Of a stretch of 20,233 nucleotides of DNA, positions 4,921 to 20,233 are shown one piece after another. The position numbers and the translations under genes were made by a program. A model generated the notes under the pieces. That model saw only the letters and a program-made list of their open reading frames with translations. It made no database searches and had not been told where the DNA came from. Each line of letters starts with the position of its first letter. The stretch's first letter is position 1. The DNA comes from a virus: IMG/VR virus record IMGVR_UViG_3300030419_007695, positions 1-20,233 of that record; one strand, given 5' to 3'.

Positions 4921-4929
4921 ATGTTCTCC

Positions 4930-7476
4930 TCAAATAAATAAATCTTCTAAAGTACTAATCTTTTCTGCTTTCCAACCAATAACATCCAATATATTTTTCA
5001 ATGGTTCCAAAAAACTAGTATTAAATTGCTTTTCGTAGTTAACATAAGAATCCAAGCCAAATTCATCAGGAACAGAAGTCTTAAAAGAAATTACCTGATC
5101 ACCCTTTGGACCTGAAACTGGATTTGGTTGATTGAGATAAATAAATTTCACTTTATCTCCTTCATAGATAGTCTCATATTTCCTAGTCAATTTTAATTGT
5201 TTCAATTTTCTATTATACAATAAAGCACCCTTGACCGCAATCGGAGTCCCCTTGATGTAAATATCCGTATCACATGAATATTTCTTTAGACTAGAAACAC
5301 CACGGGGAAATGCTATTTCTTCAGGTGTACTATTATAGAATTCTTCTTTGAAGTCCACAATCAAATTTTGGATAGTCCCTTCATCTGTTGTGAGAATCAA
5401 TCGAATACACTCTTTTAGTTTTTCACGAACAATCCCAGGAGTAGAACTGCGAGTCGTCTCGATACCCATGATCTTTAGCTTAGGCTTCTCATAGCGAACT
5501 CCTTCACTGTCCCAGACATTAAGCATATACCTTTTCTTTGCAGTCCAAATACCACTCTCTGCAATAACCTCTCTACCCATAATCATTTTGTTTTGATATG
5601 CAGACATTAACTCAGAAAGTTCTTCATATTTCTTTTCTATGAATGGGATAATTATTTTTTCTGATGCTTTGTCGAGGAAGTTTGTGATCTTTTCCACATT
5701 AGATCCATCAGGGATAAACTTATCCACAAGATTCCCAAGCCTAAGGTAAACAGAATCGGTGTCAGATGCCACAACATAGTCATAATCTTCAGTCCCTATA
5801 TGTTCATTTAAAAATTCGTTTAGTTTATCTGCAATCCAACGAATGCTTAACTGTCCAGAAGTTGTAATCGCTTCTGCCATATCAACATCATAATATCTAA
5901 AATACTGATTACCAATAGCACCATAAGCGGAGTTCAATTGAATCTTTCTAACCAACTGAAAATTATGATACTTAGTAATCTCATAATCTAAATCGGGGTT
6001 ATTAGGATCCTTTTCCTTCCTTTTCTGACACTCAATCATTTTCTTCTTGAACATACTACGCTCTTCATACATCTTCTCCATCAACTCTGGAAGAAAACCA
6101 TAGAAGTCTTTTGTATAGCATGTGCCGTTTGCAGCAACTGAGTATCCCATAGATTTCATCTGTCCTAGATTCTCGTAACAAGCCTTGCCATACAAATTGT
6201 CAGGTCCCTTAAGAATATTATCTGGACCGACACCGAAAGATAAATCCGAGTGTTCCTTATGAAGTGTCTCTGGAGAAATATTATACTGCATGATCAAGTG
6301 TGGGTACAGAGAATTCAAGTCAAAGGAAACAACCCACTCATGTCGTCCTACTATAGGATCTTTTACATAAGCACCCACATACTGATCATTCTTCTGTCCA
6401 CCCTTCTTTGGAGGAATTACAATATTTTTTTCACGCAAGTAATGATAAATGATCGCATCCCATGTTCGCACTTGAGAGAAAACATCTTCATAATTAACCT
6501 TTGCAGCATATGCAAGAGCCAAGGCAAGTTCTAGTAGTTTTAACTTGGACTCTAGCTGCTGAATAAGTACAACATCCTTGATATTATAATCAATGAACTT
6601 TTGAAAATCTTTTTTGTAAAAATCCTTGATAGAATCATACTCGGAGTATGACAACTTCCTCTCGCCAAGTTCAACAAAGGCAATATGATCAAGTCTATAA
6701 GATTCCTGATTTACATAAGTAAAAGTCTTATACAAATCAAAATAATCTAGAATGGAAATACCCAAAATCTGATAAACCAGATTCTTTTTTCCCTGCTTTT
6801 CGATATACTTATCACGCAATCTTTTCCAAGGAGAAAGTCTCTTTGCATCTTTTGGTTTTAGGACATATTTAATTCTAGAAATCAAATAAGGAATATCAAA
6901 AAACTTGACATTCCACCCAGTAATAACATGAGGAGGATCCAACTCCCACCATTCTATGAATGCAAGAAGAAGATCTTCCTCACGATCAAATTTATAAGTA
7001 AAAGTATTTCTATCGGAATTCTCAAACTGCCCCAATCCAAACACATGAGTTTTTCCTAACATAGAAACAGTAATAGCAATAACCTCTTCTCTAGGTTCTT
7101 CTACACTAGGAAATCCCCCCTCACATGTTGTTTCAATGTCCATATAACAAATTGGAATTTTACTGAAATCATAATCAACTTCTTTTGAAAAATAGTCACC
7201 GATATACTGGTAAACATAATCAGTATTACCGTAAACAGTAAAATTTTGAACACCTGAATATTTACTGACAAAATCTCGACACTCAGAAACCAAACCAGGG
7301 CTAATAGCCTCTACGCAATCACCACTGAGGGTCTTAAATTTTGTTTCGTCTTTAGAAGGAATAAAGAGCGTGGGATGGTACTTATCCACCCTCTTAACTT
7401 CATCGCCATCAGAAAAGCCTCTGTATAAAATACCATCTCCAACCAAAGAGACATTGGTATAGAATTCACCGTTCAT
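4930..7476 (-). CDS. 43: Family B DNA polymerase, T4 gp43-like
   Basis: Replicative polymerase with 3'-5' proofreading. Numbering from the TTG at 7488: Exo I YMDIET (Asp117, Glu119), Exo II GWNVKFFDIPYL (Asn193, Asp198), Exo III YNIKDV (Tyr301, Asp305). Polymerase motif A is DLNSLYP at 390-396, motif B KIQLNSAYGAIGN at 515-527, and motif C SDTDS at 575-579. AKKRYMLN at 650-657 and the KIMGIETTRSSTP block at 672-684 follow. The C-terminus STLEDLFI resembles the clamp-binding tail of T4/RB69 polymerase (SLDFLFG). All catalytic acids are present, so the enzyme should be active. ATG at 7476 is preferred (848 aa): GGAG lies six bases upstream, and MNGEFY matches the T4 N-terminus MKEFY. It precedes uvsX by 9 bases. 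Confidence 0.96.
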   Translation of the reverse strand: MNGEFYTNVSLVGDGILYRGFSDGDEVKRVDKYHPTLFIPSKDETKFKTLSGDCVEAISPGLVSECRDFVSKYSGVQNFTVYGNTDYVYQYIGDYFSKEVDYDFSKIPICYMDIETTCEGGFPSVEEPREEVIAITVSMLGKTHVFGLGQFENSDRNTFTYKFDREEDLLLAFIEWWELDPPHVITGWNVKFFDIPYLISRIKYVLKPKDAKRLSPWKRLRDKYIEKQGKKNLVYQILGISILDYFDLYKTFTYVNQESYRLDHIAFVELGERKLSYSEYDSIKDFYKKDFQKFIDYNIKDVVLIQQLESKLKLLELALALAYAAKVNYEDVFSQVRTWDAIIYHYLREKNIVIPPKKGGQKNDQYVGAYVKDPIVGRHEWVVSFDLNSLYPHLIMQYNISPETLHKEHSDLSFGVGPDNILKGPDNLYGKACYENLGQMKSMGYSVAANGTCYTKDFYGFLPELMEKMYEERSMFKKKMIECQKRKEKDPNNPDLDYEITKYHNFQLVRKIQLNSAYGAIGNQYFRYYDVDMAEAITTSGQLSIRWIADKLNEFLNEHIGTEDYDYVVASDTDSVYLRLGNLVDKFIPDGSNVEKITNFLDKASEKIIIPFIEKKYEELSELMSAYQNKMIMGREVIAESGIWTAKKRYMLNVWDSEGVRYEKPKLKIMGIETTRSSTPGIVREKLKECIRLILTTDEGTIQNLIVDFKEEFYNSTPEEIAFPRGVSSLKKYSCDTDIYIKGTPIAVKGALLYNRKLKQLKLTRKYETIYEGDKVKFIYLNQPNPVSGPKGDQVISFKTSVPDEFGLDSYVNYEKQFNTSFLEPLKNILDVIGWKAEKISTLEDLFI

Positions 7477-7482
7477 TAAAAT

Positions 7483-7486
7483 CTCC
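7483..7486 (-). promoter_or_regulatory. SD (GGAG) deciding the ATG start of DNA polymerase
   Basis: GGAG is followed by six bases and ATG at 7476. The longer frame would begin with TTG at 7488, which overlaps this SD and has no SD of its own. Confidence 0.65.
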
Positions 7487-7505
7487 AATTTTAAGTATTA
7501 TACCA

Positions 7506-7925
7506 TCAATACTCAGTAGAATCAAGAGTTTCTTCGAACAAAAGCAATTGTTCATCCCCAATAGCTCCGGAGTCCTGAACATAATCATCTATATCTGAAA
7601 TTATATCCAGTGGTGTTTTTTCTCCAATGTATGCCGAAAGAAGGACCATGTAGTTAATTACATCAATCACAGTATCATTAAATCCTTCATCCTGAACATG
7701 CATTTTACCAGCAGATAGAAAAGAAGACAGTCTACTCATTTTGTCTGTAATTCTGGTCATAAAACCTTGTTCAGTAGAACAAATGCCCATTGACTCGACT
7801 CTGGTAAAATTAGCAAACGGCTCTAAGCCATCATTTCCGGCATAATCTCTATTTTTTAGACTCATCAAATCTTTTGCTTGCTTGCAAAGTTCGTCGTGAT
7901 ATTCTAATAATTCATTTCGTGTCAT
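7506..7925 (-). CDS. MazG-like / DUF1599-like nucleotide pyrophosphohydrolase-family protein
   Basis: A 139-aa, mostly helical protein. KNRDYAG (24-30), PFANF (36-40), TRITDKMSRLSSFL (57-70) and EGFNDTVIDVINYMVLL (80-96) form the pattern seen in DUF1599 and relatives of the all-alpha NTP pyrophosphohydrolases (MazG, dUTPase-2). Glu80, Asp84 and Asp88 are candidate metal ligands. If active it could hydrolyse a (d)NTP, possibly a damaged or non-canonical one; substrate and activity are not shown. The acidic C-terminal tail contains QLLLF (126-130), which matches the bacterial sliding-clamp pentapeptide QLxLF. ATG overlaps the preceding gene's stop by 4 bases, and the polymerase ATG follows 29 bases after its stop, so it belongs to the replication operon. 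Confidence 0.65.
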   Translation of the reverse strand: MTRNELLEYHDELCKQAKDLMSLKNRDYAGNDGLEPFANFTRVESMGICSTEQGFMTRITDKMSRLSSFLSAGKMHVQDEGFNDTVIDVINYMVLLSAYIGEKTPLDIISDIDDYVQDSGAIGDEQLLLFEETLDSTEY

Positions 7926-8224
7926 ACACTTGCCCCTGATTTGTGGTATCCATTTTTCATAAAAAATTCAAACTCCTCTTCAGTTCCTTTTTTTAATTTA
8001 AAATTCAGTTCTAAAGTAGGATCAATAAAACAATCTGCTCTACAAATACTTACATCATTAGAAAAATATAGATTATTATCTAGTATTCCATCTACGTGTT
8101 TAAGAACTATTCTTGTTGTAGAATCTGGTAAATAATCTATAGCACTACAATAAGCAAAAAATCTATCAACTATTTTACCAGTACCTTCGTTATACAACAA
8201 AAACTCATGTGTTTTTATATCCAC
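7922..8224 (-). CDS. Hypothetical protein, 100 aa
   Basis: I do not recognise this protein. It is 100 aa, without a signal peptide or membrane segment, and looks like a small soluble alpha/beta protein. The first half has alternating hydrophobic residues (HEFLLYNEGTG, then TTRIVLKHVDG), followed by a Cys-containing part (SICRADCFIDP). Residues 73-95 are rich in Lys and Glu. The start is GTG at 8224, with GGAG seven bases upstream and 2 bases from the dUTPase stop. Its stop overlaps the next gene's ATG by 4 bases. Such tight coupling between two nucleotide-metabolism genes argues that it is real, and its position suggests a role in early DNA metabolism. Confidence 0.7.
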   Translation of the reverse strand: MDIKTHEFLLYNEGTGKIVDRFFAYCSAIDYLPDSTTRIVLKHVDGILDNNLYFSNDVSICRADCFIDPTLELNFKLKKGTEEEFEFFMKNGYHKSGASV

Positions 8225-8226
8225 TA

Positions 8227-8796
8227 CTAAACTCCGGTTGAGCCAAATCCACCTTTACGATTTGTTTTATTCTCTTTTGCTTTTGCTTCGGTGTAAATAA
8301 TATAGTCAATTTTAGAATAAGGTTTTATGATTTCAATCTGTGAAATCCTATCTCCATGTACAATTTTAAATGGTATGTTTGTGGTATTGTACAAAGGAAC
8401 AAATACTTCATTGCAATAATCAGAGTCGATCACTCCTTCGCAATTAATCAAAGTGACTCCATTTTTCCAAGCATTACCCGATCTTGGATGAATTCTGCCA
8501 GAACAACCATTAGGAATATCCATGATCATTCCAGTTGGAATAAGTGCTCGACATTTAGGTCCAAGCTCAAAAGTACAAATTGGAATATCACTCTCAAAAA
8601 CAACACTCGGTGTTGTTTCATGTAATTGATTGTAACAATCATACCACTTAACTGTTCTTATAATTGGCACTTTATCTTCCGGAGGTACAGGTCCTCGTAG
8701 ATGTGCATGAATATCAAAACAAGCAGAATCGTATGTAGCACGCTTTAATTCTAAAACGTTTGAGTACAGTTTATAAATTTTCATAGAATCAGTCAT
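8227..8796 (-). CDS. dut: dUTPase (trimeric dUTP diphosphatase)
   Basis: Hydrolyses dUTP to dUMP and pyrophosphate, keeping uracil out of DNA and supplying the ThyX substrate. All five motifs of trimeric dUTPases are present (numbered from the TTG at 8799): 1, ACFDIHAHL at 26-34; 2, PRSGNAWKNG at 105-114; 3, GVIDSDYCNEVFV at 122-134, with the base-stacking Tyr128; 4, GDRISQIEI at 149-157; 5, the P-loop-like RKGGFGSTG at 181-189. At 189-190 aa it is longer than the usual 140-155. The extra 40 or so residues lie between motifs 1 and 2 and include three Cys/Trp-bearing strands. Start choice is open: ATG at 8796 is 10 bases after the SD GGAG, while TTG at 8799 is 7 bases after it. It is the first gene after the sigma70-like promoter. 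Confidence 0.93.
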   Translation of the reverse strand: MTDSMKIYKLYSNVLELKRATYDSACFDIHAHLRGPVPPEDKVPIIRTVKWYDCYNQLHETTPSVVFESDIPICTFELGPKCRALIPTGMIMDIPNGCSGRIHPRSGNAWKNGVTLINCEGVIDSDYCNEVFVPLYNTTNIPFKIVHGDRISQIEIIKPYSKIDYIIYTEAKAKENKTNRKGGFGSTGV

Positions 8797-8828
8797 CAAT
8801 ATAAATCTCCCAAATGAGTAACATTAGA

Positions 8829-8856
8829 AGTATACAATATTTAAGAAAAATGTCAA
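8829..8856 (-). promoter_or_regulatory. Sigma70-like promoter of the replication operon
   Basis: On the minus strand a perfect -35 TTGACA (8856-8851) is followed by a 16-base spacer and the -10 TATACT (8834-8829), 5 of 6 to consensus. Transcription would start near 8822, leaving a leader of about 25 bases with SD GGGAG before dut. It lies in the longest gene-free stretch of the window (8800-8888), between a late fibre gene and the first DNA-metabolism gene, as expected of an early promoter read by unmodified host RNA polymerase. Confidence 0.7.
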
Positions 8857-8888
8857 TCAAAAAACAATTCGTCAAGCAGTAATTACAT

Positions 8889-9614
8889 TCATCCATATGC
8901 CTTTATTACAACTTTTCCTGCACCACCAACAGCACCACTTGTATTAGCACTTGCATGACCATTACCTCCACCACCACCGCCTCCTGGTTGATCACCAGCT
9001 TCAGCAGCAGCACTATCTGTAGCACCATCCCCACCGTCGCCATGATCTGGATTTGCACTATCTCCGCCATCCCCACCGTCAATCCCAGCGAAAACACTAG
9101 TGGATCCCCCAGCATTTCCATTTGTATTTGTTATATTTCCACCTGAAGCACTCCCACCCGAAGCAGTAGTAGAACTCGAAGAGGCTTGTCCACCACCTCC
9201 TCCGCCCGCACTCACACTACTAAACGTAGTAATGGTAGCTAAGGATCTCATATGAGTATTTAATGTTGATGCCCCACCAGCACCACCATTAGAACCAGCA
9301 GCTCCAGCAGATCCAGAAGCACCTATGGTAACGTTTATTGCATCACTTTCTTGCATGTTAGCGGCACCATAATAACGATACTTTACATACGCACCTCCAC
9401 CTCCTCCACCACCTCTATAATGAGCTTGACCACCACGACCACCCGATACACTTTTTCTACCTCCACCACCACCACCAGCACCCCACATTTCAATGTCAAG
9501 ATATCTAGTTCCTGCCTGCACACTATATGAAGCACTTCCGGGTGTCGTATAAGTTTGTGTATGAATCAATTGGTATTCTCTTGTGCTTGCAGCTTTTCCA
9601 ATACCTAAATTCAT
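8889..9614 (-). CDS. Glycine-rich adhesin-like / tail tip protein
   Basis: A 241-aa protein. The N-terminal part has YTTPGSASYSVQAGTRYLDIEMWGAGGGG (residues 22-50, described as a beta-sandwich opening: a TPG turn, an aromatic strand, QAGT, then EMWGAG). Long glycine tracts follow at 46-52, 68-74, 137-142 and 211-217, with Ser/Ala/Asn-rich spacers between. It ends in GGAGKVVIKAYG. This opening-and-closing frame is a known 'glycine-rich domain' of phage proteins, and polyglycine clusters recall the receptor-binding adhesin gp38 of S16/T2-like phages, where polyglycine II helices pack side by side; both comparisons are from memory. The likely role is host recognition at a fibre tip. ATG overlaps the stop of the fibre gene upstream by 4 bases, and an early promoter follows the gene. 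Confidence 0.65.
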   Translation of the reverse strand: MNLGIGKAASTREYQLIHTQTYTTPGSASYSVQAGTRYLDIEMWGAGGGGGGRKSVSGGRGGQAHYRGGGGGGGAYVKYRYYGAANMQESDAINVTIGASGSAGAAGSNGGAGGASTLNTHMRSLATITTFSSVSAGGGGGGQASSSSTTASGGSASGGNITNTNGNAGGSTSVFAGIDGGDGGDSANPDHGDGGDGATDSAAAEAGDQPGGGGGGGNGHASANTSGAVGGAGKVVIKAYG

Positions 9615-10570
9615 GAGAAGTTTATCCCACCAACGAATCCATAAATTGTTGTTCCGGCATCAATTGTGGTAAAGGTGACTATATCAACACCAGAAGATGT
9701 TAATGCGGGTGCGTTATCTCCAGGCCATTTTACTGCAGAATTCCATGTTGTCGTATTTGCACCACCATTTGTAATAATAAGAGTTACTGTTCCTGCAATA
9801 CCCGTTGCTGGAGGATTAGTAAAACTAACTGTTAGATCATCTGCAAAGGTAAAGGTTTGAACATTACCATCTTCAAAATCAACATTAAAGGAAGCATTCT
9901 TGCTACCACCTGCATTTACAGTTTCTGAGTAGTCTTTAAATTTTGGTCTGGCTACTTCGTTGTCCAAGAAGCTGCTCGGTCCACCGACAGTGATGCCAGC
10001 ATCAGCAGACAACCCTACAGGTAATTGCATTCCAGTTGCAGTTCCCCGTGCATACGTAACACCACCTGCAAGAAAATTCTTAACATTATTACTAGCAAAA
10101 TGTATATAAGTATCTGTATCGTTCAATGCACCTAAATGACCACCACTTTCAATATAAGTGTCTGGAGCATTGAGTCTGATCTGAGATGCTGCGCTGATAT
10201 AAATCGCACTATGAGAATCACGAATGACCAGATCCGTATCATTGCCTGCAGAGTCAACATCTCCTATGGTTATATTTCTAGTATCGACATCAAAAACAGT
10301 ATTCCCATTATTATTTTTAAGATGAAATGTATTGGGAACAAAAATTGGATCTCCAAACGTTGCACCACCAGATGAAGATATTCCCGCAACGGGTAATATC
10401 AATGCATTTGTAGTAACATCACCCGTGAGACCATTAAATGAATCTACAACAGCTTCAGCAGTGTGACCATGCTCTTTATTCCAAGCATACCCATTCCATT
10501 TCCAAGTTATATTACCGATAGTATGTGTTGAAATATTTGCTACAAGATCTGATGATGGAAAATCACTCAT
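9611..10570 (-). CDS. Tail fibre-like structural protein
   Basis: A 319-aa protein without a signal peptide or membrane segment. The N-terminus (ITWKWNGYAWNKE at 21-33) resembles the short WxW motif common in phage fibre heads. SFNGLTGDV at 44-52 is a version of the (S)VNGxTGxV motif repeatedly found in phage fibres. The middle (75-210) is a series of short beta strands with Asn/Asp/Gly turns. The C-terminal part (from about 215) has Thr/Val-rich strands ending in KWPGDNAP, VDIVTF, and YGFVGGINF, a closing module I associate with marine phage virion proteins. The start ATG has GGAG five bases upstream and is 21 bases downstream of a perfect TATAAATA late motif. It ends in a 4-base overlap with the glycine-rich gene. 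Confidence 0.72.
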   Translation of the reverse strand: MSDFPSSDLVANISTHTIGNITWKWNGYAWNKEHGHTAEAVVDSFNGLTGDVTTNALILPVAGISSSGGATFGDPIFVPNTFHLKNNNGNTVFDVDTRNITIGDVDSAGNDTDLVIRDSHSAIYISAASQIRLNAPDTYIESGGHLGALNDTDTYIHFASNNVKNFLAGGVTYARGTATGMQLPVGLSADAGITVGGPSSFLDNEVARPKFKDYSETVNAGGSKNASFNVDFEDGNVQTFTFADDLTVSFTNPPATGIAGTVTLIITNGGANTTTWNSAVKWPGDNAPALTSSGVDIVTFTTIDAGTTIYGFVGGINFS

Positions 10571-10604: not shown

Positions 10605-11750
10605 TCATGAAACAGAAACAAACTCATAATCTTCATTTTGTATTGCACCCAGATTGGTCATACCATCATGCTTGTATAGTCCCGATGATCTCTTGATCCT
10701 AAAATCTAAATTTGCATAGTCAACAAAATCTCCGGTGGTCATTGCTATAACATCAATCATATTTTCATATGAATCCATGTTATTAAAATTCCCCGAAGAG
10801 TTTGATCCCATTGCTGCTAATTGTCCTCCGGCTTGTCTGGTATCATTTGCCGCGACATTTATCCCATATGCACCACAGCCAAATATTATAGAAGAATTGC
10901 CGTTTCTCGCTGTCTGAGTTTCAGTTGCATCCCCACTTATACTTGTCGTGTTAATACCATCTCCACCTACGTTAACTATGGTACAATTTGTCACACCAGG
11001 ACCATTTCTATTATTCGTTGTATTCATAAAAAATCCATGTCCATGAACTCTAGTAATCACCGTTTGAAAAACAGTTCCGGACGAACTGTTGCTTTCAATC
11101 CCGATACCATCACCGGATCCGGAAGTAGAGGGACCAATGACTCTACAATTAATAAGAAAACCATTTGCCCTCATGTCTACAATCTTATCATAAGCGTCCC
11201 CGACAGATTCAAAAACACACATATTAAAATTAGAACTAGATACAATCATAACCTCAGAATTATTATGAGAACAATCTGCTTTAAAATTACAACCAAACCA
11301 ACCTTGCTGATCTACATCAGCAGTGGTAGCATCAATCATACAATTCTTGCTATAACCAGTATTAGTATTTTCAAATGAAAGGCATCTATAATATGTGGTT
11401 TCTTCTGTGTCAACCAGTTCAGTATTTGCTGTATTTACAATTAAAGGATAATCTGTTAAATCCAACCTAAGTCCAGTTGTATCCCATTTTGGTTTCAATA
11501 GAGTTCCGTTAGAATCTGCACCAACCCATTGATTAGGCTCTGCTCTCGATGGTGCTGCTCCACTAAATGTTAATTTAGATCCAACTGTATATGTTCCAGA
11601 TAAAAATACAAATTTTTTATTATTTCGATCTAATGCTTTGATTTCATCAGACCAGTCATTACTATCGACAGCAGGAACAGCATTTGCAACAGAACTACCA
11701 GAGTTATCCCCAGCACCAGCAGGTGAAATGAATACGTTAGTTAACGCCAT
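10605..11750 (-). CDS. Beta-helix (pectate-lyase-like) tail fibre/spike protein
   Basis: A 381-aa protein. Its opening (VFISPAGAGDNSGSS at 6-20) is the start often seen in secreted and phage right-handed beta-helix proteins. Residues 110-330 show short repeating strands of the parallel beta-helix type, each ending in Asn/Cys/Gly turns (CLSFENTNTGY, CNFKADCSHNN, CVFESVGDAY, CRVIGPSTSG, CTIVNVGGDG). About 7 Cys residues, mostly in strand positions, are unusual for fibres. Such folds serve as tail fibres or as depolymerases that cut host polysaccharide. I cannot assign catalytic residues, so enzymatic activity is open. The ATG has GGGGAG seven bases upstream and lies 3 bases after the stop of the collagen-like gene. 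Confidence 0.65.
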   Translation of the reverse strand: MALTNVFISPAGAGDNSGSSVANAVPAVDSNDWSDEIKALDRNNKKFVFLSGTYTVGSKLTFSGAAPSRAEPNQWVGADSNGTLLKPKWDTTGLRLDLTDYPLIVNTANTELVDTEETTYYRCLSFENTNTGYSKNCMIDATTADVDQQGWFGCNFKADCSHNNSEVMIVSSSNFNMCVFESVGDAYDKIVDMRANGFLINCRVIGPSTSGSGDGIGIESNSSSGTVFQTVITRVHGHGFFMNTTNNRNGPGVTNCTIVNVGGDGINTTSISGDATETQTARNGNSSIIFGCGAYGINVAANDTRQAGGQLAAMGSNSSGNFNNMDSYENMIDVIAMTTGDFVDYANLDFRIKRSSGLYKHDGMTNLGAIQNEDYEFVSVS

Positions 11751-11753
11751 ACA

Positions 11754-13511
11754 TCATCTCCCCTCATAACTCAAAAAGGCCTGAGCTTGGGTTGTACCTG
11801 AACTATTACTAAAAACACTAAAATACAAGAAATTGCCCGCAGTTGCGTATAAATGATTAAATCCATCAGTGTCGCCGGTAAGAGCCGAAATTCCTAAAGA
11901 ACAACCAGTAAGTGCTCCAGTTGCAGGAGTTGCAAAATCATTACCTGCAATATAAATTGCACCCGTAAGACCTCCGGTTGCTGCAGCTTTTAATTGAAAC
12001 TTAGTAAATTTTGCATTATAAGGAACTCTGTATAATGAAAATGTTTTATCATCAGAAGATATAGCACTAGAAGAATTTAACGTAAAAATCGCAACATCAG
12101 AAGAATTTCCGCCACCTCCTGCATCTATAGTAACTGCACCAGTGGATCCATTAACAGAGGTAACAATATTTTGTAATTCTATCTGAATCCACCTACCAGA
12201 ATTTCCTCTCCCGGTAATTTTAAATTGATCTCCTCTAAAATCAATATCCTGCGCACTTCTACTTTTAATGCCACCATCTTTAAGAACACCAATTCCCCCA
12301 CCACCAGAAGAAGCAGCATTTATAAACTGCTGGATCATTTGATTATTAACTTCACCACCAGCTGATAATAGCCTTTCAAAAAACTTTTTATCTATTAATA
12401 TTTCTCTTTTATCTTGATCATAAATCAAAGGATAGGATGCATCCACTAAACCAGAACTACCATCATCTCCTTTATCTCCCTGCTTTCCTCTTTCTCCTCG
12501 TTTGCCAGTCTCTCCCCTTTCTCCGGGCAGACCGACATCACCTTTATCACCCTTTTCACCTCTAATTCCTCGTTCGCCCCTATCACCCCTTTCGCCTTTA
12601 ATGCCCTGCTCGCCCCGATCTCCTTTATCGCCCTTTGAACCTTTTTTGCCTTGTTTACCAAACTTTCCTAATTCTCCCCGATCACCCTTTTCACCTTTAT
12701 CTCCCTTTTCACCTCTATAACCTCTAGGACCTAAATCACCTTTATCACCCTTTTCGCCTTTCTCACCACGTTCACCGTCAACACCATCTCTACCTTTAAT
12801 TTGTTCTGTTATTGAAGAAAAATCTTCTATAGTTTTCATTAAAGAATTTTTAATCTCTTCGTTTAAACCAGAGATTCCAGGTTCTCCCCGTTCTCCCTTT
12901 TCACCTCGTTCACCTCGTTCACCTCGTTCTCCCTTAAGAAGTGAAGGATCCAAATTTTCAAGGTATGTTACTGGAGGAGATTCTTCTGTAATGGGCTGCA
13001 CCTCTTCCACAACAAGAACGGGTTCTTCCTCTAATATTGTTTCCTCTAGTTCCGGTTCCGGCATTTCTGGTTGAACTAGTTCTAAATTATTAGAAAATGA
13101 TTTGGCAGAACCCCTAACAATAATGACTTTATCATCTAACTCCAATAAAAGCTTATCCACACCGGTATCGAATGAAAAATCATAATCTGCAAAATCATCA
13201 GACAAAGAAGATTCTTTATAAACAGATCCATTAATAAAAGTTTCATTGGATGGAGAAATCCATCTGTACAATTTAGATTCTATGATATCATCATACTGAA
13301 TTAAATGATCATAAATATCTTCTTTTTTACCTGACAACTTTACAACACTATTATCAGGCAATTTAAATTTTTTACCAGAAGAAAAGAAACTAAAACCCCC
13401 AGAATATTCACCCAAAGAATAAGCTTCGGTGAATAATTCATTCGTTTCTTCTAGAACTAAATTCTTTTTTAATCTCTCGTTTATAGTTTTTTTAACTAGC
13501 CATTTAGACAC
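11754..13511 (-). CDS. Collagen-like tail fibre protein
   Basis: A 585-aa modular fibre. Residues 1-145 form a globular head. Residues 146-190 are a Pro/Glu-rich acidic linker. Residues 194-215 are seven Gly-x-y triplets, followed by a 24-residue coiled-coil-like break (216-239) and then 38 uninterrupted triplets (240-354). The x and y positions are dominated by Glu/Asp and Lys/Arg with only two prolines in the long block (GPR and GLP), so stability probably comes from KGE/KGD salt bridges instead of hydroxyproline. The C-terminal part (355-585) has TSVNGSTGAVTID at 451-463, a fibre motif shared with the gene at 9611, and a beta-rich end that may be the trimerisation tip. The start is GTG at 13511, with GGAG nine bases upstream and a late motif 25 bases upstream. 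Confidence 0.85.
   Translation of the reverse strand: MSKWLVKKTINERLKKNLVLEETNELFTEAYSLGEYSGGFSFFSSGKKFKLPDNSVVKLSGKKEDIYDHLIQYDDIIESKLYRWISPSNETFINGSVYKESSLSDDFADYDFSFDTGVDKLLLELDDKVIIVRGSAKSFSNNLELVQPEMPEPELEETILEEEPVLVVEEVQPITEESPPVTYLENLDPSLLKGERGERGERGEKGERGEPGISGLNEEIKNSLMKTIEDFSSITEQIKGRDGVDGERGEKGEKGDKGDLGPRGYRGEKGDKGEKGDRGELGKFGKQGKKGSKGDKGDRGEQGIKGERGDRGERGIRGEKGDKGDVGLPGERGETGKRGERGKQGDKGDDGSSGLVDASYPLIYDQDKREILIDKKFFERLLSAGGEVNNQMIQQFINAASSGGGGIGVLKDGGIKSRSAQDIDFRGDQFKITGRGNSGRWIQIELQNIVTSVNGSTGAVTIDAGGGGNSSDVAIFTLNSSSAISSDDKTFSLYRVPYNAKFTKFQLKAAATGGLTGAIYIAGNDFATPATGALTGCSLGISALTGDTDGFNHLYATAGNFLYFSVFSNSSGTTQAQAFLSYEGR
12450..12794 (-). repeat. 38 consecutive Gly-x-y triplets (collagen-like coding repeat)
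   Basis: Residues 240-354 of the fibre protein repeat as GxY without a break, and charged residues fill most x and y positions. At the DNA level this is a degenerate 9-base periodicity. A shorter block of 7 triplets lies at 12867-12932. It could lengthen or shorten in-frame by recombination or slippage. Confidence 0.85.
12900..12926 (-). repeat. Perfect 9-base tandem repeat, 3 copies
   Basis: Three identical 9-base units (ttcacctcg on the plus strand) are followed by the first bases of a fourth. They encode Gly-Glu-Arg repeats in the short collagen block. Identity down to synonymous positions suggests recent slippage rather than only selection on the protein. Confidence 0.75.
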
Positions 13512-13546: not shown

Positions 13547-14776
13547 TTATTTTTTTCTCTTCTTGTATGTTTTTGGTTTTTTAGTTTCTTTCTGTATACT
13601 TTCGTTTACAAGTTTCTCATGTTCTTTTTTCATTCTTTCCATTTCATCCATAACTTGTTGATACGAATCTAAGTTTTTCTGAATTCGTTCCCAATGTTCT
13701 CTCGGAGCTAATTTATTTTCCATCAATACCTTACAAGCTCTATGTCCCATTTCAGAAAAACCAGCATAATATGCAGTTGCACCAATTTCATCCAACAAAC
13801 CCCACTTATAAACATCATTTTGTATAAAAAGAATATCATTTTCTGGATATGGAATATCTAAACCCTGCCTTGCAAACATAAAACCTGTAACTGGTCTATC
13901 GTTCATTCTGTGCATTCTTGCAAGAAACCATAATGGTTCTGCTCTACTAGGTCTAAAGTTATAACACTTAAGAAAACAATCTTGTATTTCATCGAAAGGT
14001 CTTTCCAGAATACCCTTAAGTATTGCACACCTTAGCATGGCATAATATGCTTCTTCTTCCCACCCTCCCATATCAACTCTCTTTTGATATGCTTCCAGAG
14101 ACAATTCCCACTGCTGAGAATCAAAGTAACTCTGTGCAAGGTAAAATTGATACCTTTCATTATTTGGTTCTTCTTTAAGAGCTTCAATCAATGTTTCTGC
14201 ATCTTTTTTATATTTATCTGTTGGAGTGATACCAATATTTCTGTTACCAGCAGTTCTTGCATACACTCTGTAATCACCTCCAAGTTTATGATTTACTAGC
14301 TGATCTTGTGGTGTATCACACATTGCATACTCATGAAGAACTCCAACGTATTTCCACTTTCTAGATAATTTAAATATTTGATTTCTCCACCAAACAAAAT
14401 CCTCTCTCCCAATTTGAAGAGAATATGCATCTGCAGTCATTTCATCTGGATATTTAAAATCTCCCTGAACATAATCATCTGCATCAATAACCCAAGCATA
14501 ATCAGCACCACTTTTTTCTGCATTCCTAAAAGACTCAGTTCTAGACCCCATCTTACCAGCATGATCACCAAAACCCTTCCAGTCTGACTGATGAACTTCA
14601 CCAGGAACGCCTAACTCTTCCATTACAGACTTTATAAGATCCTGTGTACCATCGGTAGAACCAGTATCAGTAATATCATATCTATCAACATATTTTGCCA
14701 TAGAACGAAGACATTCTTCAATTATATGGGTTTCGTCCTTCACAATCATGCAAAGTGTAACACTAGGTCTACTCAT
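13547..14776 (-). CDS. Glycosyltransferase family 2 with TPR-like C-terminal region
   Basis: A GT-A fold glycosyltransferase transferring a sugar from a nucleotide donor. The N-terminal domain opens with VTLCMIVKDETHIIEECLRS (residues 6-25: CMIVKDE nucleotide-binding strand), TDTGSTDGTQ at 36-45, and the metal-binding DADD at 98-101. Residues 185-300 read as helical repeats of TPR type (PNNERYQFYLAQSYF, WELSLEAYQKRV). The last 50 residues are a Lys-rich coiled-coil-like tail. GT2 proteins with TPR tails occur in T4-like cyanophages; the acceptor is unknown. ATG overlaps the preceding stop by 4 bases and has GGAG five bases upstream. It is the last gene of the glycan cassette and is followed by a late promoter, so it may be the last step. 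Confidence 0.8.
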   Translation of the reverse strand: MSRPSVTLCMIVKDETHIIEECLRSMAKYVDRYDITDTGSTDGTQDLIKSVMEELGVPGEVHQSDWKGFGDHAGKMGSRTESFRNAEKSGADYAWVIDADDYVQGDFKYPDEMTADAYSLQIGREDFVWWRNQIFKLSRKWKYVGVLHEYAMCDTPQDQLVNHKLGGDYRVYARTAGNRNIGITPTDKYKKDAETLIEALKEEPNNERYQFYLAQSYFDSQQWELSLEAYQKRVDMGGWEEEAYYAMLRCAILKGILERPFDEIQDCFLKCYNFRPSRAEPLWFLARMHRMNDRPVTGFMFARQGLDIPYPENDILFIQNDVYKWGLLDEIGATAYYAGFSEMGHRACKVLMENKLAPREHWERIQKNLDSYQQVMDEMERMKKEHEKLVNESIQKETKKPKTYKKRKK

Positions 14777-15600
14777 GCTATCTCCAAAATATTTAAACTT
14801 TTCATAAAATCAATCACTTCTTTATATATGTCCTCGACAGAAGGATTCCAAGAACCATCAACAAAAACACATTCTGTATCAAATGGATTTGTATCCTCTG
14901 TCATTCTTTTCTTTAATCCGTTACCATATCCCCAAGAAAACATGGGACATCCACACAAAAGAGCTAAGTGAGAAGTTCCTGTGTTTGATCCAAAATGCAT
15001 CATAGAATTAGAAAGTAAAGATATATGATCAGTAACATCCTTTGTTTCTGGTATCAATACACCATTCGGGCAATAATTATCTTTTGGCAATCCCACCAAA
15101 TAAATAGGTAAATCCATTTCCCTCTTTATCATTCCCACCAATTCATTATAATTTTCTTCTGACCAATTTTTCATAGCACCTCTAGAAATGCTTCTACAAG
15201 AAATTGTCAAATATTTGTCTTCATCTACTATTCGATCTTCATAAAATTTCTTCTCTTTCGAAGGAGCTTCCCAAACCCCAAATCTATTTCCATACGGTAT
15301 TTGTAGATACTGATCTGGATTAAATTTCTCTAAAGTATCAGTATGAATTTTTTCATAAAAAGAACTATGATCGTACCTACCATTATCTGCACCCCTTCCA
15401 CAAGGAAGAAATCCAACTGGCATTTCAAACTCAATAACTTCATCTGCCAATTCAAAAAAAGGAGCTAATGTTTTATTTGCTAGAACAATCTTATGATGAT
15501 CACAATTCTCCTCAAAGAAAGCACGAACCTTTTGTTGAATATCAAAAACAGTCCAACCAAACTCCCCAATTATAGGAGAAACTAAAGCTACTTTATCCAT
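14773..15600 (-). CDS. Glycosyltransferase-like protein, GT9/heptosyltransferase type
   Basis: A 275-aa protein resembling GT-B transferases related to the ADP-heptose family. The C-terminal half has the typical donor-binding layout: KNWSEENYNELVGMI at 144-158, LPIYLVG at 164-170, and GSNTGTSHLALLCGCP at 204-219, where GSNTGTSHL takes the place of the G(N/D)TGxxH motif. The N-terminal half is degenerate. The family usually acts on lipopolysaccharide core or similar acceptors, so a surface glycan role is plausible; the sugar donor is not predictable. The ATG follows the stop of the upstream gene by 1 base and has AGGA seven bases upstream. Its stop overlaps the next gene by 4 bases. Confidence 0.65.
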   Translation of the reverse strand: MDKVALVSPIIGEFGWTVFDIQQKVRAFFEENCDHHKIVLANKTLAPFFELADEVIEFEMPVGFLPCGRGADNGRYDHSSFYEKIHTDTLEKFNPDQYLQIPYGNRFGVWEAPSKEKKFYEDRIVDEDKYLTISCRSISRGAMKNWSEENYNELVGMIKREMDLPIYLVGLPKDNYCPNGVLIPETKDVTDHISLLSNSMMHFGSNTGTSHLALLCGCPMFSWGYGNGLKKRMTEDTNPFDTECVFVDGSWNPSVEDIYKEVIDFMKSLNILEIA

Positions 15601-15601
15601 T

Positions 15602-16291
15602 TCATAATCCTAACGTTTTTTTATCTTTTCTAATCTGTTCTATCCTAGAAGAAACTCCGTGATCAAAAATACCTGCACCCGCGTAGTGAATAATATGAGA
15701 TTCGAATCTACTAGGAAAATGATTCCAGGCTTCACAAAACATAGTCATATTATTATACTTAAATGATAACTCATGAAAGCAGTAATTATTTTTGTTAATC
15801 TGATAACCAAGATGCACATCATCAAAACCCCTACCAACCCAATATTCATTATTTATTTTTTCGAAAATGTTTTTATGTAATTTAGAAGTTAAAAATACCC
15901 CAGTATTTGGATAACCCTCACTCCAACCAATATATCCAAATTGTTCTTGAATAAGTCGAATTCTTTGATGTCTATCCTCTGCTCTAGATCCCTTATCTTC
16001 ATATATTGTACCAACACACTCATATGGAACTATGTCAAATATATTTGGACAAGATTCATTGATGAGAATATCAGAATCCAAATTTAAAACTCTATCATAT
16101 TCATCCAGCAAGCTACCAACTTGCATTATTTTAAAATGATATCTTCCGTGTCCAACTGTGCAATCAGAATCCTCTGTCATTGTGATAAAATCTGCACCAC
16201 ATTTTTTAGCATAATTCTTAATTATTGGATGGGTTAACAATGACATTTCATTTATATTTTGATCACATCTTGTAGCAATAGCTAGTTTCAT
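15602..16291 (-). CDS. Glycosyltransferase, GT8-like
   Basis: A 229-aa GT-A type protein. RYHFKIMQVGSLLDEYDRVLNLDSDILI (50-77, cited as the block holding DSD at 72-74) contains the metal-binding DxD on the strand that typifies GT8/GT-A enzymes. YPNTGVFLTS at 127-136 and HYAGAG at 202-207 follow, like the NxG and HxxG motifs of galactosyltransferase/glycogenin relatives. There is no signal peptide or membrane span, so it should work in the host cytoplasm. It is flanked by 1-base gaps on both sides, within the cassette. Which sugar is moved, and to what, is unknown. Confidence 0.72.
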   Translation of the reverse strand: MKLAIATRCDQNINEMSLLTHPIIKNYAKKCGADFITMTEDSDCTVGHGRYHFKIMQVGSLLDEYDRVLNLDSDILINESCPNIFDIVPYECVGTIYEDKGSRAEDRHQRIRLIQEQFGYIGWSEGYPNTGVFLTSKLHKNIFEKINNEYWVGRGFDDVHLGYQINKNNYCFHELSFKYNNMTMFCEAWNHFPSRFESHIIHYAGAGIFDHGVSSRIEQIRKDKKTLGL

Positions 16292-16292
16292 T

Positions 16293-17060
16293 TCAACTTT
16301 TCTTTCTTAACACAATCATTCTAGCCGAACCTCTTCTACCAAGAGGATCGGAGTCATCATGTAAAGTTTCAACATGTTCAAACATCTTATAAAAATCTTC
16401 CTGCTCTGTAGGACCGAAATATTCATTATGTCTATCCATAAAGTCATCTATAAAGATGACACCATTCTCATCCATGAATTCTGCAACCCTAGTAGCACAC
16501 ATTCCCCTTGCCCTACCATCAACCAAAGCAACATCAATTTTTTCTGGTTTTATGGAGTAGATAAAATCAACATGATCTCTAAACTGCCAATATCTTTTAA
16601 TGGTATGTTCTGTATGATGAGGATATTTTTCTTTTAACCTTTGATAATCGGAATCTGTAATATCAGATAAGTATGCATCCAAAACTTTATCTCCTGCAAA
16701 TTGATTAGGTTCTTTGCAATAATAATAAACATTATCGTAAGAAAAATTTTCCTTAAGTTCGTATTCAATTTTTTCATGAAATTTAGTTATAAATTCAACA
16801 GAATAAAACTTCTTCACAAATTTAGGAAAATAAAACGTACTACCACCACTTCCATATTCAAACATCACACTATCTGATGTAATATACTTCATCATACCTT
16901 TGATAATATTATCACCAAATTCAGGTAAATATTTACTTTGTCTTTCATTTAATATTACAGGATGGTAATCTGGATTTTCTCCTCTTGTTCTAGCATCCTG
17001 ATCTTCTTTAAATGCGAGATAAGTATAAAGATGATCATCTCTATCAATTTCATTTTTCAT
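16293..17060 (-). CDS. SAM-dependent methyltransferase-like protein
   Basis: A 255-aa Rossmann-like protein. FEYGSGGSTFYF at 67-78 looks like the SAM-binding motif I (E-GxGxS), SVEF at 87-90 supplies the acidic residue after strand beta2, and DVALVDGRAR at 176-185 with VIFIDDF at 201-207 are the strand 4 and 5 motifs of class I methyltransferases of the Methyltransf_24 type. The core between these (95-170) is rich in Tyr and charged residues. Substrate unknown; a sugar hydroxyl is possible given the neighbours. Its ATG overlaps the stop of the DUF6165-like gene by 4 bases, and its stop is 1 base before the GT8-like start. Confidence 0.7.
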   Translation of the reverse strand: MKNEIDRDDHLYTYLAFKEDQDARTRGENPDYHPVILNERQSKYLPEFGDNIIKGMMKYITSDSVMFEYGSGGSTFYFPKFVKKFYSVEFITKFHEKIEYELKENFSYDNVYYYCKEPNQFAGDKVLDAYLSDITDSDYQRLKEKYPHHTEHTIKRYWQFRDHVDFIYSIKPEKIDVALVDGRARGMCATRVAEFMDENGVIFIDDFMDRHNEYFGPTEQEDFYKMFEHVETLHDDSDPLGRRGSARMIVLRKKS

Positions 17061-17446
17061 TTTCTAAACTCACTCTTTCCTTCGTAGCCCTTTTCCTCGA
17101 TCAATTCAGATCCAGTAGTAAGGTTGATTTCTTTTTTTATGTTACAACGAAGATCATTTTCTTGATATGCTCTTCTTGCTGCATTCACAAAAGGACCACC
17201 AAAATTTCTAGTCTGTTCATGTTCCCTAAGTTCATCTTCCGCTTCCCATATCTTAGTATTAACATGTACTAACGATTTCAATCTAGCTTCCACAAAGTCT
17301 TTATCAAAATTTTCTAAAAGAGGTTTCAGAACTTTATATTCATTCTTAATATTTTTTAATTTTTCTTTATTCTTTATCTTTTTCATTTTGATTTCCAGGA
17401 TAGAAATCTTATCAAAAAGTTCACCATTAGAAACATCAATTTTCAT
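17057..17446 (-). CDS. DUF6165-like protein
   Basis: A 129-aa helical, Lys/Glu-rich protein. NGELFDKISILEIKMKKI (7-24), LVHVNTKIWEAEDELREHE (59-77) and RRAYQENDLRCNIKKEIN (90-107) reproduce the pattern I know for DUF6165, whose members sit in lipopolysaccharide and surface-sugar clusters of bacteria and phages. No catalytic residue set is known for the family, and its biochemical role is unknown to me. Context suggests an accessory for glycan synthesis. The ATG lies inside the end of the dehydratase gene (11-base overlap), and its own stop overlaps the methyltransferase start. Confidence 0.7.
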   Translation of the reverse strand: MKIDVSNGELFDKISILEIKMKKIKNKEKLKNIKNEYKVLKPLLENFDKDFVEARLKSLVHVNTKIWEAEDELREHEQTRNFGGPFVNAARRAYQENDLRCNIKKEINLTTGSELIEEKGYEGKSEFRK

Positions 17447-18320
17447 TTAGTAGCCTTTCAATGTCGTGAGTATACATCATTTCTATAAGTTTGTCAACAC
17501 TATAGTCTGGAGTCCATTTTAATTTTTTCTTTATTTTTGTATTATCACCCAACACACCATAACTCTTAATTGATTTAAAACTAAAATGTTTATCTATATT
17601 TTTTATTCCTGCATGTTTAAAGACTTTATTTACAAACTCAAGAATAGTTGTTCCTATACCAGTAGATATTATATAATTATCTGAACGATCTTTTTGTAAC
17701 ATCATCCACATAGCTCGTACATAGTCACCTGCAAAACCAAAATCTTTAATTACACCAACATTATCCAAAGACAAAGAATTTACCAAACCCAACTTAATCT
17801 TTGCTACTGTACTAGTGATTTTTCTTGTCACATAAGTTTCATCTCTTCTTGGAGATTCATGATTAAATAGGATTCCACATGAACAATGCATTCCATAGTA
17901 ATCTCTATAACTATTCACTAAATTCTGAGAAAATAATCTTGCACTCGCGTAAGGAGTCAGTGGATTAAAAGCAGTTTCTTCATTAACAACTCCATCAACT
18001 TTTCCGTATATTTCAGAAGAAGATGATTGAAAATACTTTATATCTGGATTTATTTTTTGTATTGATTCTAAAATATTCAATGTACCATCACAAATAACAG
18101 AGGTAACATCGTATGGATATTCAAAAGAAATTCTATCCTTTACTTGTCCAACTAGATTATATATCTCTATTGGCTTAGTCTTTTCTATGGTGTTTTCTAC
18201 AATAGAATGAGATCGAATATCTCCAGAATATCCTATAACTCTGTAGTTTTTCTCTTTTAAGAAACTACTGAGATAATAACCATCTTGACCGTCAATACCA
18301 AAAATTAAAGCGGTTTTCAT
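17436..18320 (-). CDS. gmd: GDP-mannose 4,6-dehydratase-like SDR protein, compact variant
   Basis: Family members turn GDP-mannose into GDP-4-keto-6-deoxymannose using bound NADP. Recognisable parts: GIDGQDGYYL at 8-17 (GxxGxxG), IYNLVGQ at 53-59, QSSSSEIYG at 98-106, NPLTPYASARLF at 119-130 and the strongly GMD-like ILFNHESPRR at 150-159, then DFGFAGDYVRAMW at 193-205. Two oddities stand out. The catalytic YxxxK is Tyr124-x3-Arg128. The stretch after strand beta2, which in usual GMDs carries the RR(S/A)S NADP-binding motif and a loop of about 30 residues, is missing, leaving YSGDIRSH. Total length is 294 aa against about 320-370. It may be altered in cofactor use, of low activity, or specialised. 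It overlaps the C-methyltransferase gene by 4 bases. Confidence 0.8.
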   Translation of the reverse strand: MKTALIFGIDGQDGYYLSSFLKEKNYRVIGYSGDIRSHSIVENTIEKTKPIEIYNLVGQVKDRISFEYPYDVTSVICDGTLNILESIQKINPDIKYFQSSSSEIYGKVDGVVNEETAFNPLTPYASARLFSQNLVNSYRDYYGMHCSCGILFNHESPRRDETYVTRKITSTVAKIKLGLVNSLSLDNVGVIKDFGFAGDYVRAMWMMLQKDRSDNYIISTGIGTTILEFVNKVFKHAGIKNIDKHFSFKSIKSYGVLGDNTKIKKKLKWTPDYSVDKLIEMMYTHDIERLLNEN

Positions 18321-19540
18321 TTTTTAATAAGTTCAAATTTGGGACACGGTACTATAAACGTACCACCATTATTCAGATAATTTTCTTCTCTAATTTTAAA
18401 TTCATTAATGAAATGCCAAGGAAGAATTAGAAGATAATCTGGATTTTGTTTTCTCATGTCATCTTCCGAATAAATTGGAATGTTAGTACCAACAGTTTTC
18501 AATCCATACTTTTGTGGATTTCTTTCTGCTATTCCTTCTATCAAATTATGATCCAATTTGAGCCACTGAAGAAGAGTATTACCTTTCGTAGAAGCACCAT
18601 AACCCCAAACCCTTTTTCCCTCAGTCTTTACCTTATTCCATATAAAATCATGAGTTTTATTTCTGAGTAAGTTTATTTCTTCGTAAAATTTAAGATATGG
18701 TTCTGCTGTTGTAATTCCTTCTTTGTTTTCCAGTTCCAATGTGCTTTCAATTCTATACCTAGCAACATCCCTGAATGGAGATGTTCTGAAAAGAGAATCG
18801 GTGGATTTATTTTTTCTTATGTAAACTCTAAAACTACCACCATTCACATCATTGAATATACAGTCTACAACTTTCATATCCACTTTGTTTAGAAGATTGA
18901 TAATAGAAGTCAAACTATAATAATACACATGCTCATGACATATATTATCAAATGCAAGTTGTCTTAACATAAGAGGTGTGTAGCTAAGTTGCATTACAAA
19001 AAGACCCTCATCATCAAGAACTTCATCGATATCCTTAAGAAACGACAAAGGATCATCCAAATCATAAAACATAGCAATTGTTGTTATTATTTTTGCTTTT
19101 CTGTCGCCATACTTAGATTCCTTAAAACTCTTAGCAGTAAAATAATCCTGTATAATTAAATCTGCAACCTGGGATGATTCATTATAAAATGTATCATCTG
19201 CCGGGTCTATACCAACCCGTGTAAAGTGAGTAGGAATAGAACGAAGAAGAGTTCCATCATTACATGCTATGTCCAAGAAAATATCTCCCTTTTCCATAGG
19301 AATACTTTCCAAGCAGCTTTTAGCTACATCTTTAAGTTCTTTTGTCATTGTAGAGTTTATACCAGATCTATACCAGTACTGACCATACATCTTATTAGGA
19401 TCTACTGTAGTCTTCAAACGAGGAGCGCCTATAGACTCGTCCATAATTAAAGAGAGATTTGCTTTACCTCCCCTTGGTTTACTTTCTTCTGATATAAAGT
19501 CTGATACGTATAAATCACCCAAATCAAATAAAACACTCAT
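18317..19540 (-). CDS. Sugar C-methyltransferase-like protein (TylC3/NovU-type)
   Basis: A 407-aa protein with the arrangement of SAM-dependent sugar C-methyltransferases. The SAM core is LDIACNDGTLL at 89-99 with GIDPADD at 110-116. The family segment FDNICHEHVYYYSL at 197-210 resembles the usual HEH(L/Y)xYFS catalytic region, and NGGSFRVYI at 233-241 follows. The C-terminal Rossmann-like half has GYGASTKGN at 313-321, AERNPQKYG at 338-346 and LILPWHF at 371-377. The N-terminal zinc-binding domain (CxxC pairs) typical of the family appears reduced: it starts directly at LFDLGDLYVSDF with no Cys pair. Known relatives add a methyl to a keto-deoxysugar, fitting the dehydratase just downstream. 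ATG at 19540 is 7 bases after the FkbM stop. Confidence 0.8.
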   Translation of the reverse strand: MSVLFDLGDLYVSDFISEESKPRGGKANLSLIMDESIGAPRLKTTVDPNKMYGQYWYRSGINSTMTKELKDVAKSCLESIPMEKGDIFLDIACNDGTLLRSIPTHFTRVGIDPADDTFYNESSQVADLIIQDYFTAKSFKESKYGDRKAKIITTIAMFYDLDDPLSFLKDIDEVLDDEGLFVMQLSYTPLMLRQLAFDNICHEHVYYYSLTSIINLLNKVDMKVVDCIFNDVNGGSFRVYIRKNKSTDSLFRTSPFRDVARYRIESTLELENKEGITTAEPYLKFYEEINLLRNKTHDFIWNKVKTEGKRVWGYGASTKGNTLLQWLKLDHNLIEGIAERNPQKYGLKTVGTNIPIYSEDDMRKQNPDYLLILPWHFINEFKIREENYLNNGGTFIVPCPKFELIKK

Positions 19541-19547
19541 AATATAA

Positions 19548-20233
19548 TTAACTTCCTTTTATATAAAAATCATTCACCTTATATCTTCTATCTTTTATAT
19601 ATCCATATTCATTTAAATACTTTTCGATTTTATCTTCATTATGATTATTTTCAACAACCAATAGCTTAACATTCCATGTATTTAAATCAATTCCCTCTAG
19701 AACATCAAGTTCGGTTCCTTCTGTATCAATGGAAATAAAATCTATATCTCTACTAAACTCAACCTCATCTAAAATAGAATCCAATTTTCTAACGGGAACT
19801 TTTATTTTGTATATTTCATGTATGAGGTGACTATGGGATTCCAATAACTTTTCATCTACTTCCAATCCACTCAAAGAAGATTTTATCTTATTCTTTCCTA
19901 TTACAAATACATTAAAATCAACACTTTGATTTTCTTCTTTACCACATGCAGACATTACAACATGATTTCTACACTTCAAATCTTCCTGATACTCTGGGTT
20001 AGCCTCAATACACAAAGTCTTCCAACCAGACTCCTCAAAATATTTTGTATTAGATCCCTTAGTCCCATCCGCAGCACCAACCTCTATACATGTACCAACA
20101 TAATCAGAGTCAAAATACTTTTCGATTATACTATCAGTTTCCCATTGACCATAATACTGACTTGTCTTTATTTGAGAAGGTTCATAGAGATCACGTCTAG
20201 CTTGTTCAAATATTTCTTTATCATTATCACTTA
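19548..20233 (-). CDS. FkbM family methyltransferase (5' end outside window)
   Basis: The frame is open from the window edge to a stop at 19548, giving 227 residues, so the start codon lies outside. CIEVGAADGTKGSNTKYFEE (the SAM-binding strand and Gly loop), TLCIEANPE, the VPVRKLDSIL strand, and DFISIDTEGTELDVLEGID with VVENNH are the FkbM pattern. These enzymes O-methylate hydroxyls, often of sugars. An internal TTG at 20015 gives a 155-aa frame, but it would cut through the SAM motif, so the longer reading is right. It is the first cassette gene visible and probably shares a transcript with the genes downstream; the promoter is not in the window. Confidence 0.85.
   Translation of the reverse strand, partial: SDNDKEIFEQARRDLYEPSQIKTSQYYGQWETDSIIEKYFDSDYVGTCIEVGAADGTKGSNTKYFEESGWKTLCIEANPEYQEDLKCRNHVVMSACGKEENQSVDFNVFVIGKNKIKSSLSGLEVDEKLLESHSHLIHEIYKIKVPVRKLDSILDEVEFSRDIDFISIDTEGTELDVLEGIDLNTWNVKLLVVENNHNEDKIEKYLNEYGYIKDRRYKVNDFYIKGS

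Follow-up and report, generated by a model that had tools for sequence, protein, structure and literature searches.

A fixed glycosyltransferase gene between exchangeable glycan-synthesis islands and tail-fibre genes in T4-like phages

The stretch of DNA analyzed here (the window; 20,233 nucleotides) lies within a 21,462-bp IMG/VR record in which T4-type replication genes are present, and the phage is a T4-like virus that is probably marine. Its DNA polymerase has its best matches in cyanomyoviruses, with no more than ~52% identity to any phage record; a search for an isolated close relative found none, with polB at <=52% identity to cyanophages and the GT2-TPR protein described below at 37% to jumbo phage Tunturi_5. 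Eight open reading frames (ORFs), all on the minus strand, run from 20231 to 13547 at intervals of -11 to +7 bp, just as a first-pass annotation had read them, co-oriented and overlapping or nearly so. In that order, they encode an FkbM methyltransferase domain, open at its 5' end (19548..20233; PF05050, 79 bits); a TylC3-like sugar C-methyltransferase (CMT; 18317..19540; PF08484, 141.5 bits against a cut-off of 23.5); a GMD-like SDR with a broken YxxxR dyad and without the RR loop (17436..18320; GDP_Man_Dehyd PF16363, 252 bits); a DUF6165 protein with a predicted four-helix fold (17057..17446; PF19662, 55 bits); a possible class I methyltransferase (16293..17060; PF13578, 14.5 against 26.3); a GT8-like glycosyltransferase (15602..16291; PF01501, weak at 20.7 against 24.3) and a GT9-like, heptosyltransferase-like protein (14773..15600; PF01075, weak at 13.7 against 22), with homologues at 60% and 52% identity, respectively, in a second viral locus, L011; and GT2-TPR, a glycosyltransferase consisting of a GT-A domain and a helical TPR-type domain (13547..14776; PF00535, 25.4 bits, above cut-off). 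The family assignments made at first pass are borne out by Pfam for FkbM, the C-methyltransferase, the GMD-like protein, DUF6165 and GT2, whereas GT8, GT9 and the second methyltransferase fall below their cut-offs. Homologues in other viral contigs are available for seven of the eight genes, and no relative of the orphan methyltransferase (16293-17060) was recognized in IMG/VR viral contigs using peptide patterns. As had been noted, no separate reductase is seen in the window.

The fibre genes reported next to the block are indeed there. A collagen-type tail fibre gene (11754..13511, minus strand; PF01391, 82 bits; tail-fibre PHROGs), whose product is the candidate acceptor, starts 35 bp downstream of the sugar genes, and is followed on the same strand by genes for a fibre-block protein without a Pfam or PHROG match (10605..11750; a homologue is present in the downstream block of L113), a tail-fibre-type protein (9611..10570; PHROG tail fibre and virion structural matches) and a Gly-rich tail protein (8889..9614; phrog_863, tail fiber assembly, E 7e-25). 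The protein encoded at 3-695 belongs to the small phrog_1084 family and is located beyond thyX here, directly after GT2-TPR in relatives.

At the other end of the block, record positions 20234-20243, directly past the window, are a run of 10 N, which leaves the FkbM ORF without its 5' end. Beyond this gap the record encodes a GT-like domain, followed by part of another methyltransferase that reaches the contig end at 21462; the sugar-gene island extends past 20233. In L011, which has the nearest cassette, a GT-like N-terminal domain and FkbM are fused in one 445-aa protein, and the same GT-like domain is encoded in the window's record past the gap. Since the L011 homologue fuses both domains, the window "FkbM gene" probably corresponds to the C-terminal half of a similar fusion protein. 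The alignment with L011 suggests that the missing stretch is nearer 30 bp than 10 and lies within this one fused gene.

The position of GT2-TPR was followed through a sample of 110 listed viral loci with homologues of this gene, gathered in scans of no more than 80 loci each, the frequencies in which describe the sample and not nature; many of the loci lie on partial contigs, where the island is incomplete. Genes in the relatives were called with a greedy ORF caller and clustered using BLAST and the Louvain method. Wherever the flanks are in view among these loci, GT2-TPR lies between regA and dUTPase/gp43: regA is found upstream in 27 listed loci, alongside gp62, gp44 and gp45, and dUTPase, gp43 and uvsX come after the fibre block downstream. 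The window itself contains only the gp43 side of the locus, and we place regA on the opposite side because it is there in the relatives. In eight listed loci regA is 19-29 bp from GT2-TPR with nothing in between (empty sites), and in 19 the two genes are separated by 5.4-13.3 kb and 7-17 genes (occupied sites). Downstream, the next gene is of fibre type or belongs to the fibre block in 84 of 104 listed loci: it is a collagen-type fibre gene in 33 and another fibre gene in 5, and in 46 it encodes a small protein of ~150 aa (phrog_1084, a PHROG without an assigned function and with a weak tail-fibre-assembly match), directly followed in 32 of these 46 loci by a collagen-type fibre. Overall, such a fibre is present near GT2-TPR in 71 of the 110 listed loci. 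What was taken to be an eight-gene cassette is two things, a variable seven-gene island and the fixed GT2-TPR; the glycan-synthesis block is real, but GT2-TPR is part of the backbone and stands outside the exchangeable portion. In three loci (L117, L119 and L121), GT2-TPR is flanked by regA and dUTPase, and there are no island or fibre genes beside it.

The content upstream of GT2-TPR ranges from nothing to 5-13 kb of genes for nonulosonic acid, heptose, amino-sugar or GMD/C-methyl pathways, and 12 sugar-gene markers occur in 35 combinations, the empty one counted, among 87 listed islands. Phage pairs with 93-96% polymerase identity can have zero island genes in common. The L086 polymerase is 87% identical to that of the window, and the compared parts of the two loci share no island gene; L086 carries, at 4661-8827, a gene set for a nonulosonic acid, sialic or pseudaminic, with PseB-like, PseF-like and NeuB/PseI-like proteins, the last of which is 487 aa long, with a longer C-terminal part. 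In contrast, L011, with a polymerase only 60% identical to the window's, has GT-FkbM, CMT, GMD-like, GT8, DUF6165 and GT9 genes in common with it, in a slightly changed order. An exchange is also seen between L096 and L097, from different metagenomes, which have polymerases 96% and GT2-TPR proteins 97% identical, a small fibre-block protein at 95%, another fibre-block protein at 92% and a partly rearranged collagen-type fibre, whereas their islands have no gene in common at 40% identity. The island of L096 includes a heptose-type set at 5495-9097 (HAD/RfaE-II-like, GmhA-like isomerase, transaldolase and HddA-like kinase). The DNA of these two phages becomes similar 4 bp ahead of the GT2-TPR start codon, and in the pairs L235/L236, L094/L106 and L216/L218 the boundary falls at 0 to +11 bp of this codon, with residual upstream similarity of 64-70% in the latter two. 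In four phage pairs, then, the island has been replaced with the break at the GT2-TPR start codon. The first-pass annotation had named absence of the cassette from close relatives with identical fibres as evidence against its own reading, and in this lineage the cassette is absent from relatives with matching fibres, at swapped or empty sites. We accordingly rejected the idea that cassette and fibre are inherited as a single unit, since sites are empty or swapped while the fibres are largely unchanged.

The biochemical route proposed for the window, dehydration of GDP-mannose followed by C-methylation, was examined using 87 listed viral relatives of CMT and 167 listed viral homologues of the GMD-like protein. 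A GMD-like gene is found within 3 kb of CMT in 64 of the 87 viral loci, and near CMT in many cellular loci as well, and DUF6165 is often between or beside the two in other phage loci. Gene order thus points to a recurrent GMD-CMT unit, and the general logic of the proposal appears reasonable; it is the first step that is in doubt here. The window protein scores 261 bits against the GMD equivalog TIGR01472, below the cut-off of 415. The catalytic YxxxK, kept in 160 of the 167 listed homologues, reads YASAR in the window protein and HACSK in L011, and in the alignment the stretch with the RR loop, the role of which in GMD is given in PMC3539893, is deleted from the window protein. By sequence reading, the nucleotide-binding GxxGxxG and the LFNHESPRR..VTRK signature are kept. 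Of 116 conserved positions the window protein has lost 35 and that of L011 42, compared with deviations at 1-17 positions for canonical relatives in a similar leave-one-out count. The two proteins form a clade with support of 100/99 on a long stem, and its sister in the tree, from L219, reads YxxxK. An alignment-based scan for a third member of the degenerate clade gave only proteins <=44% identical. The window GMD-like enzyme looks catalytically broken, and dehydration of GDP-mannose at this locus is doubtful; however, both ORFs are intact at a mutual identity of 45%, and it therefore seems that the protein is retained for a role other than standard dehydration. Such degenerate GMD-like proteins are a warning against inferring pathways from gene names. 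A similar route, GMD followed by a TylC3-type C-methyltransferase, has been proposed in silico for the virenose-type pathway of Coxiella, from which the window differs in that its GMD-like protein is without two features, catalytic Lys and RR loop, that the paper names for GMD (PMC3539893).

The window CMT, in contrast to the GMD-like protein, looks intact. The best PDB match is TylC3 (4rv9, E 1.5e-39), and the equivalents of TylC3/TcaB9 Glu224-His225 and Tyr76 are invariant in the 87 listed sequences. Those of His181 and Tyr222 are replaced by Asp and Cys in 86 of the 87, where characterized enzymes have His and Tyr; this is a trait of the subfamily, and we rejected on that ground the notion of a degenerate CMT. 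The roles of these residues are taken here to be those of their TcaB9 counterparts. The N-terminal zinc CxxC pairs are absent from the window CMT and, by a simple pattern, from 80 of the 87 listed relatives. Cellular CMT relatives gave no clear donor that would indicate a host, the best, at 57%, being on a short contig of a Flavobacteriales MAG, possibly of viral origin itself. The L011 island also has FdtA-family and DegT-family genes; in known pathways, these families act on dTDP-4-keto-6-deoxyglucose. The 4-keto sugar for CMT may thus be supplied by the host. The DUF6165 protein is modelled by AF2 as a confident four-helix bundle (pLDDT 91) with no clear match among PDB folds (best Foldseek E 0.7; best VIA Z 6.7, in the range of common helical arrangements), and no published function for this family was found in the literature.

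The GT2-TPR protein is modelled with high confidence (AF2 pLDDT 93) and has a DxD motif at residues 98-101 in its GT-A domain. Sequence matches in the PDB are to GmaR, SunS and OGT TPR domains, the GmaR GT domain being the best, and the closest folds are those of the SunS/ThuS peptide S-glycosyltransferases (Foldseek 1e-14; VIA Z 23.3 over 270 residues with an rmsd of 2.9, the next family being at Z 16.5). The arrangement of a GT-A domain plus a helical domain in these glycocin S-glycosyltransferases is present in the GT2-TPR model, but the identity to their structures is 15-20%, and against the SunS family model, NCBIfam TIGR04195, the protein scores 26.8 bits, below the cut-off of 350. On the strength of the model, GT2-TPR may work like the SunS/ThuS enzymes; because it is so far below the family cut-off, we do not call it one. 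GmaR glycosylates flagellin and its TPR is proposed to bind the acceptor (PMC9638930), and GmaR and FlmG resemble GT2-TPR as soluble cytoplasmic glycosyltransferases with a protein-binding domain that act on a filament protein (PMC9638930, PMC7591256), although they are bacterial enzymes with flagellin as the acceptor, whereas the acceptor of the phage protein is only putative. GT2 proteins of this fold are encoded by giant viruses as well (Indivirus, Harvfovirus and Pithovirus; TM 0.83, 31-32% identity).

Taken together, the locus is best described as an exchangeable glycan-synthesis island between regA and gp43, upstream of GT2-TPR, and the reading that we favour, with a probability of about 0.48, is that GT2-TPR glycosylates a virion protein in the cytoplasm. 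On this reading, an unusual nucleotide sugar would be assembled and decorated in the cytoplasm by enzymes of the island. CMT would C-methylate a 4-keto-6-deoxy sugar, of which the host is perhaps the source, and O-methyl groups would be added by FkbM and possibly by the orphan methyltransferase. The helical domain of GT2-TPR would hold the acceptor while the enzyme begins the glycan on a virion protein, for which the collagen-like fibre encoded next to it is the likeliest candidate, and the GT8/GT9-like enzymes would extend the chain. A swap of the island would then put a new sugar on the particle with the protein unchanged. Pointing this way are the SunS/ThuS-like fold, the place of GT2-TPR beside the fibres, the lack of membrane proteins, the island swaps at the start codon and the GmaR relatives. 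The first-pass suggestion of virion glycosylation remains plausible from the fold, the fibre neighbours and the lack of membrane proteins, but the cassette is not tied to the fibres. The fuller version, in which the island's sugar is placed by a fixed SunS-like enzyme on the fibre encoded next to it, or on some other virion protein, and an island swap is a switch of glycan "serotype", as a widespread arrangement, is possible but more tentative. Counting against virion glycosylation are the presence of GT2-TPR with neither island nor fibre in L117, L119 and L121, a match to SunS that reaches only 15-20% identity and does not come near the family cut-off, the apparently broken GMD-like enzyme, island swaps beside unchanged fibres, which show that the fibre can do without any one particular sugar, and GT8/GT9-like enzymes, which are typical of lipopolysaccharide (LPS) synthesis.

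The same GT8/GT9-like and deoxysugar genes, which resemble LPS genes, lead to the principal alternative, that the island and GT2-TPR add unusual sugars to the host LPS, at the core or O-chain, and so block superinfection. The high turnover of islands would fit an arms race in which surface structures are contested, and soluble enzymes are able to modify LPS core. However, the 1025 genes that lie upstream of GT2-TPR across 100 listed loci include none for a polytopic membrane protein with >=3 hydrophobic segments, counted by Kyte-Doolittle only, whereas the same test gave 6 segments for Wzy and 9 for Wzx of K-12. With no flippase, polymerase or other such protein in these islands, O-antigen export through a Wzx/Wzy route is unlikely, to judge from the genes. 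The authors of the study of similar islands in pelagimyophages favour host modification (PMC7029224), but the GT2-TPR fold is nearest to peptide transferases and the gene adjoins fibre genes, and we regard host-surface modification as somewhat unlikely, our best guess being the glycosylation of a virion protein. The islands may, in either case, let phages alter which sugars coat their own particles or the host. Considerably less probable is that the islands are mostly non-functional cargo, mobile genes serving as filler for headful packaging next to a GT2-TPR with an unrelated job: stuffer DNA has been considered for cyanophage LPS clusters (PMC3037559), and both the degenerate GMD-like protein and the empty sites would fit, but the ORFs are intact and tightly packed, the CMT active-site residues are intact in 87 listed relatives, and L011, although its polymerase is just 60% identical, has six window genes together. 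Hypermodification of phage DNA, with the sugars placed on modified bases, is least probable of all; although phage glycosyltransferases are known to glycosylate viral DNA (PMC7029224) and the locus lies among replication genes, the window has no recognized base-hydroxylating or hydroxymethylating enzyme, only ThyX and dUTPase, and GT2-TPR resembles peptide transferases.

The first-pass annotation knew of no described phage system with this combination; the exact organization is new, but clusters of the same general kind have been reported (PMC3037559, PMC7029224). The pelagimyophage host recognition cluster is likewise a hypervariable island in a T4-like genome with fibre genes, glycosyltransferases and deoxysugar genes, and its authors infer modification of the host O-chain; it is located between VrlC and gp14, not in the regA-gp43 interval where GT2-TPR islands are found when both flanks are seen, and no fixed GT2-TPR anchor is described for it (PMC7029224). 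Window-type loci similarly combine hypervariable glycan genes and fibre genes within a T4-like backbone. Cyanophage LPS clusters, such as that of P-SSM2, contain GMD, epimerases and glycosyltransferases and are likewise without polytopic membrane proteins, but lie near hli03 or phoH, and their function was stated to be unknown (PMC3037559). In mycobacteriophages, glycans are attached to proteins of the virion itself, on the capsid and tail tube (Freeman 2023, via PMC12619734), and the account in PMC12619734, so far as it deals with these glycans, mentions no swappable sugar island. Phage glycan islands are, therefore, already known; what is new is the combination of a fixed protein-type glycosyltransferase, fibres and an exchangeable island between regA and gp43. 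The 2010 genome comparison considered that the LPS-type clusters of marine T4-like phages might be "stuffer DNA" (PMC3037559), and a fixed protein-type glycosyltransferase between swappable islands and fibres offers a concrete and testable alternative, virion glycosylation. If true, it would mean phage particles with changeable glycan coats, of relevance to adsorption, host range and competition between phages. A GT2-TPR homologue was not found in cyanophage records; in cyanophage S-RS29 the regA-gp43 interval carries other accessory genes, and in pelagiphage HTVC008M it holds one small ORF only.
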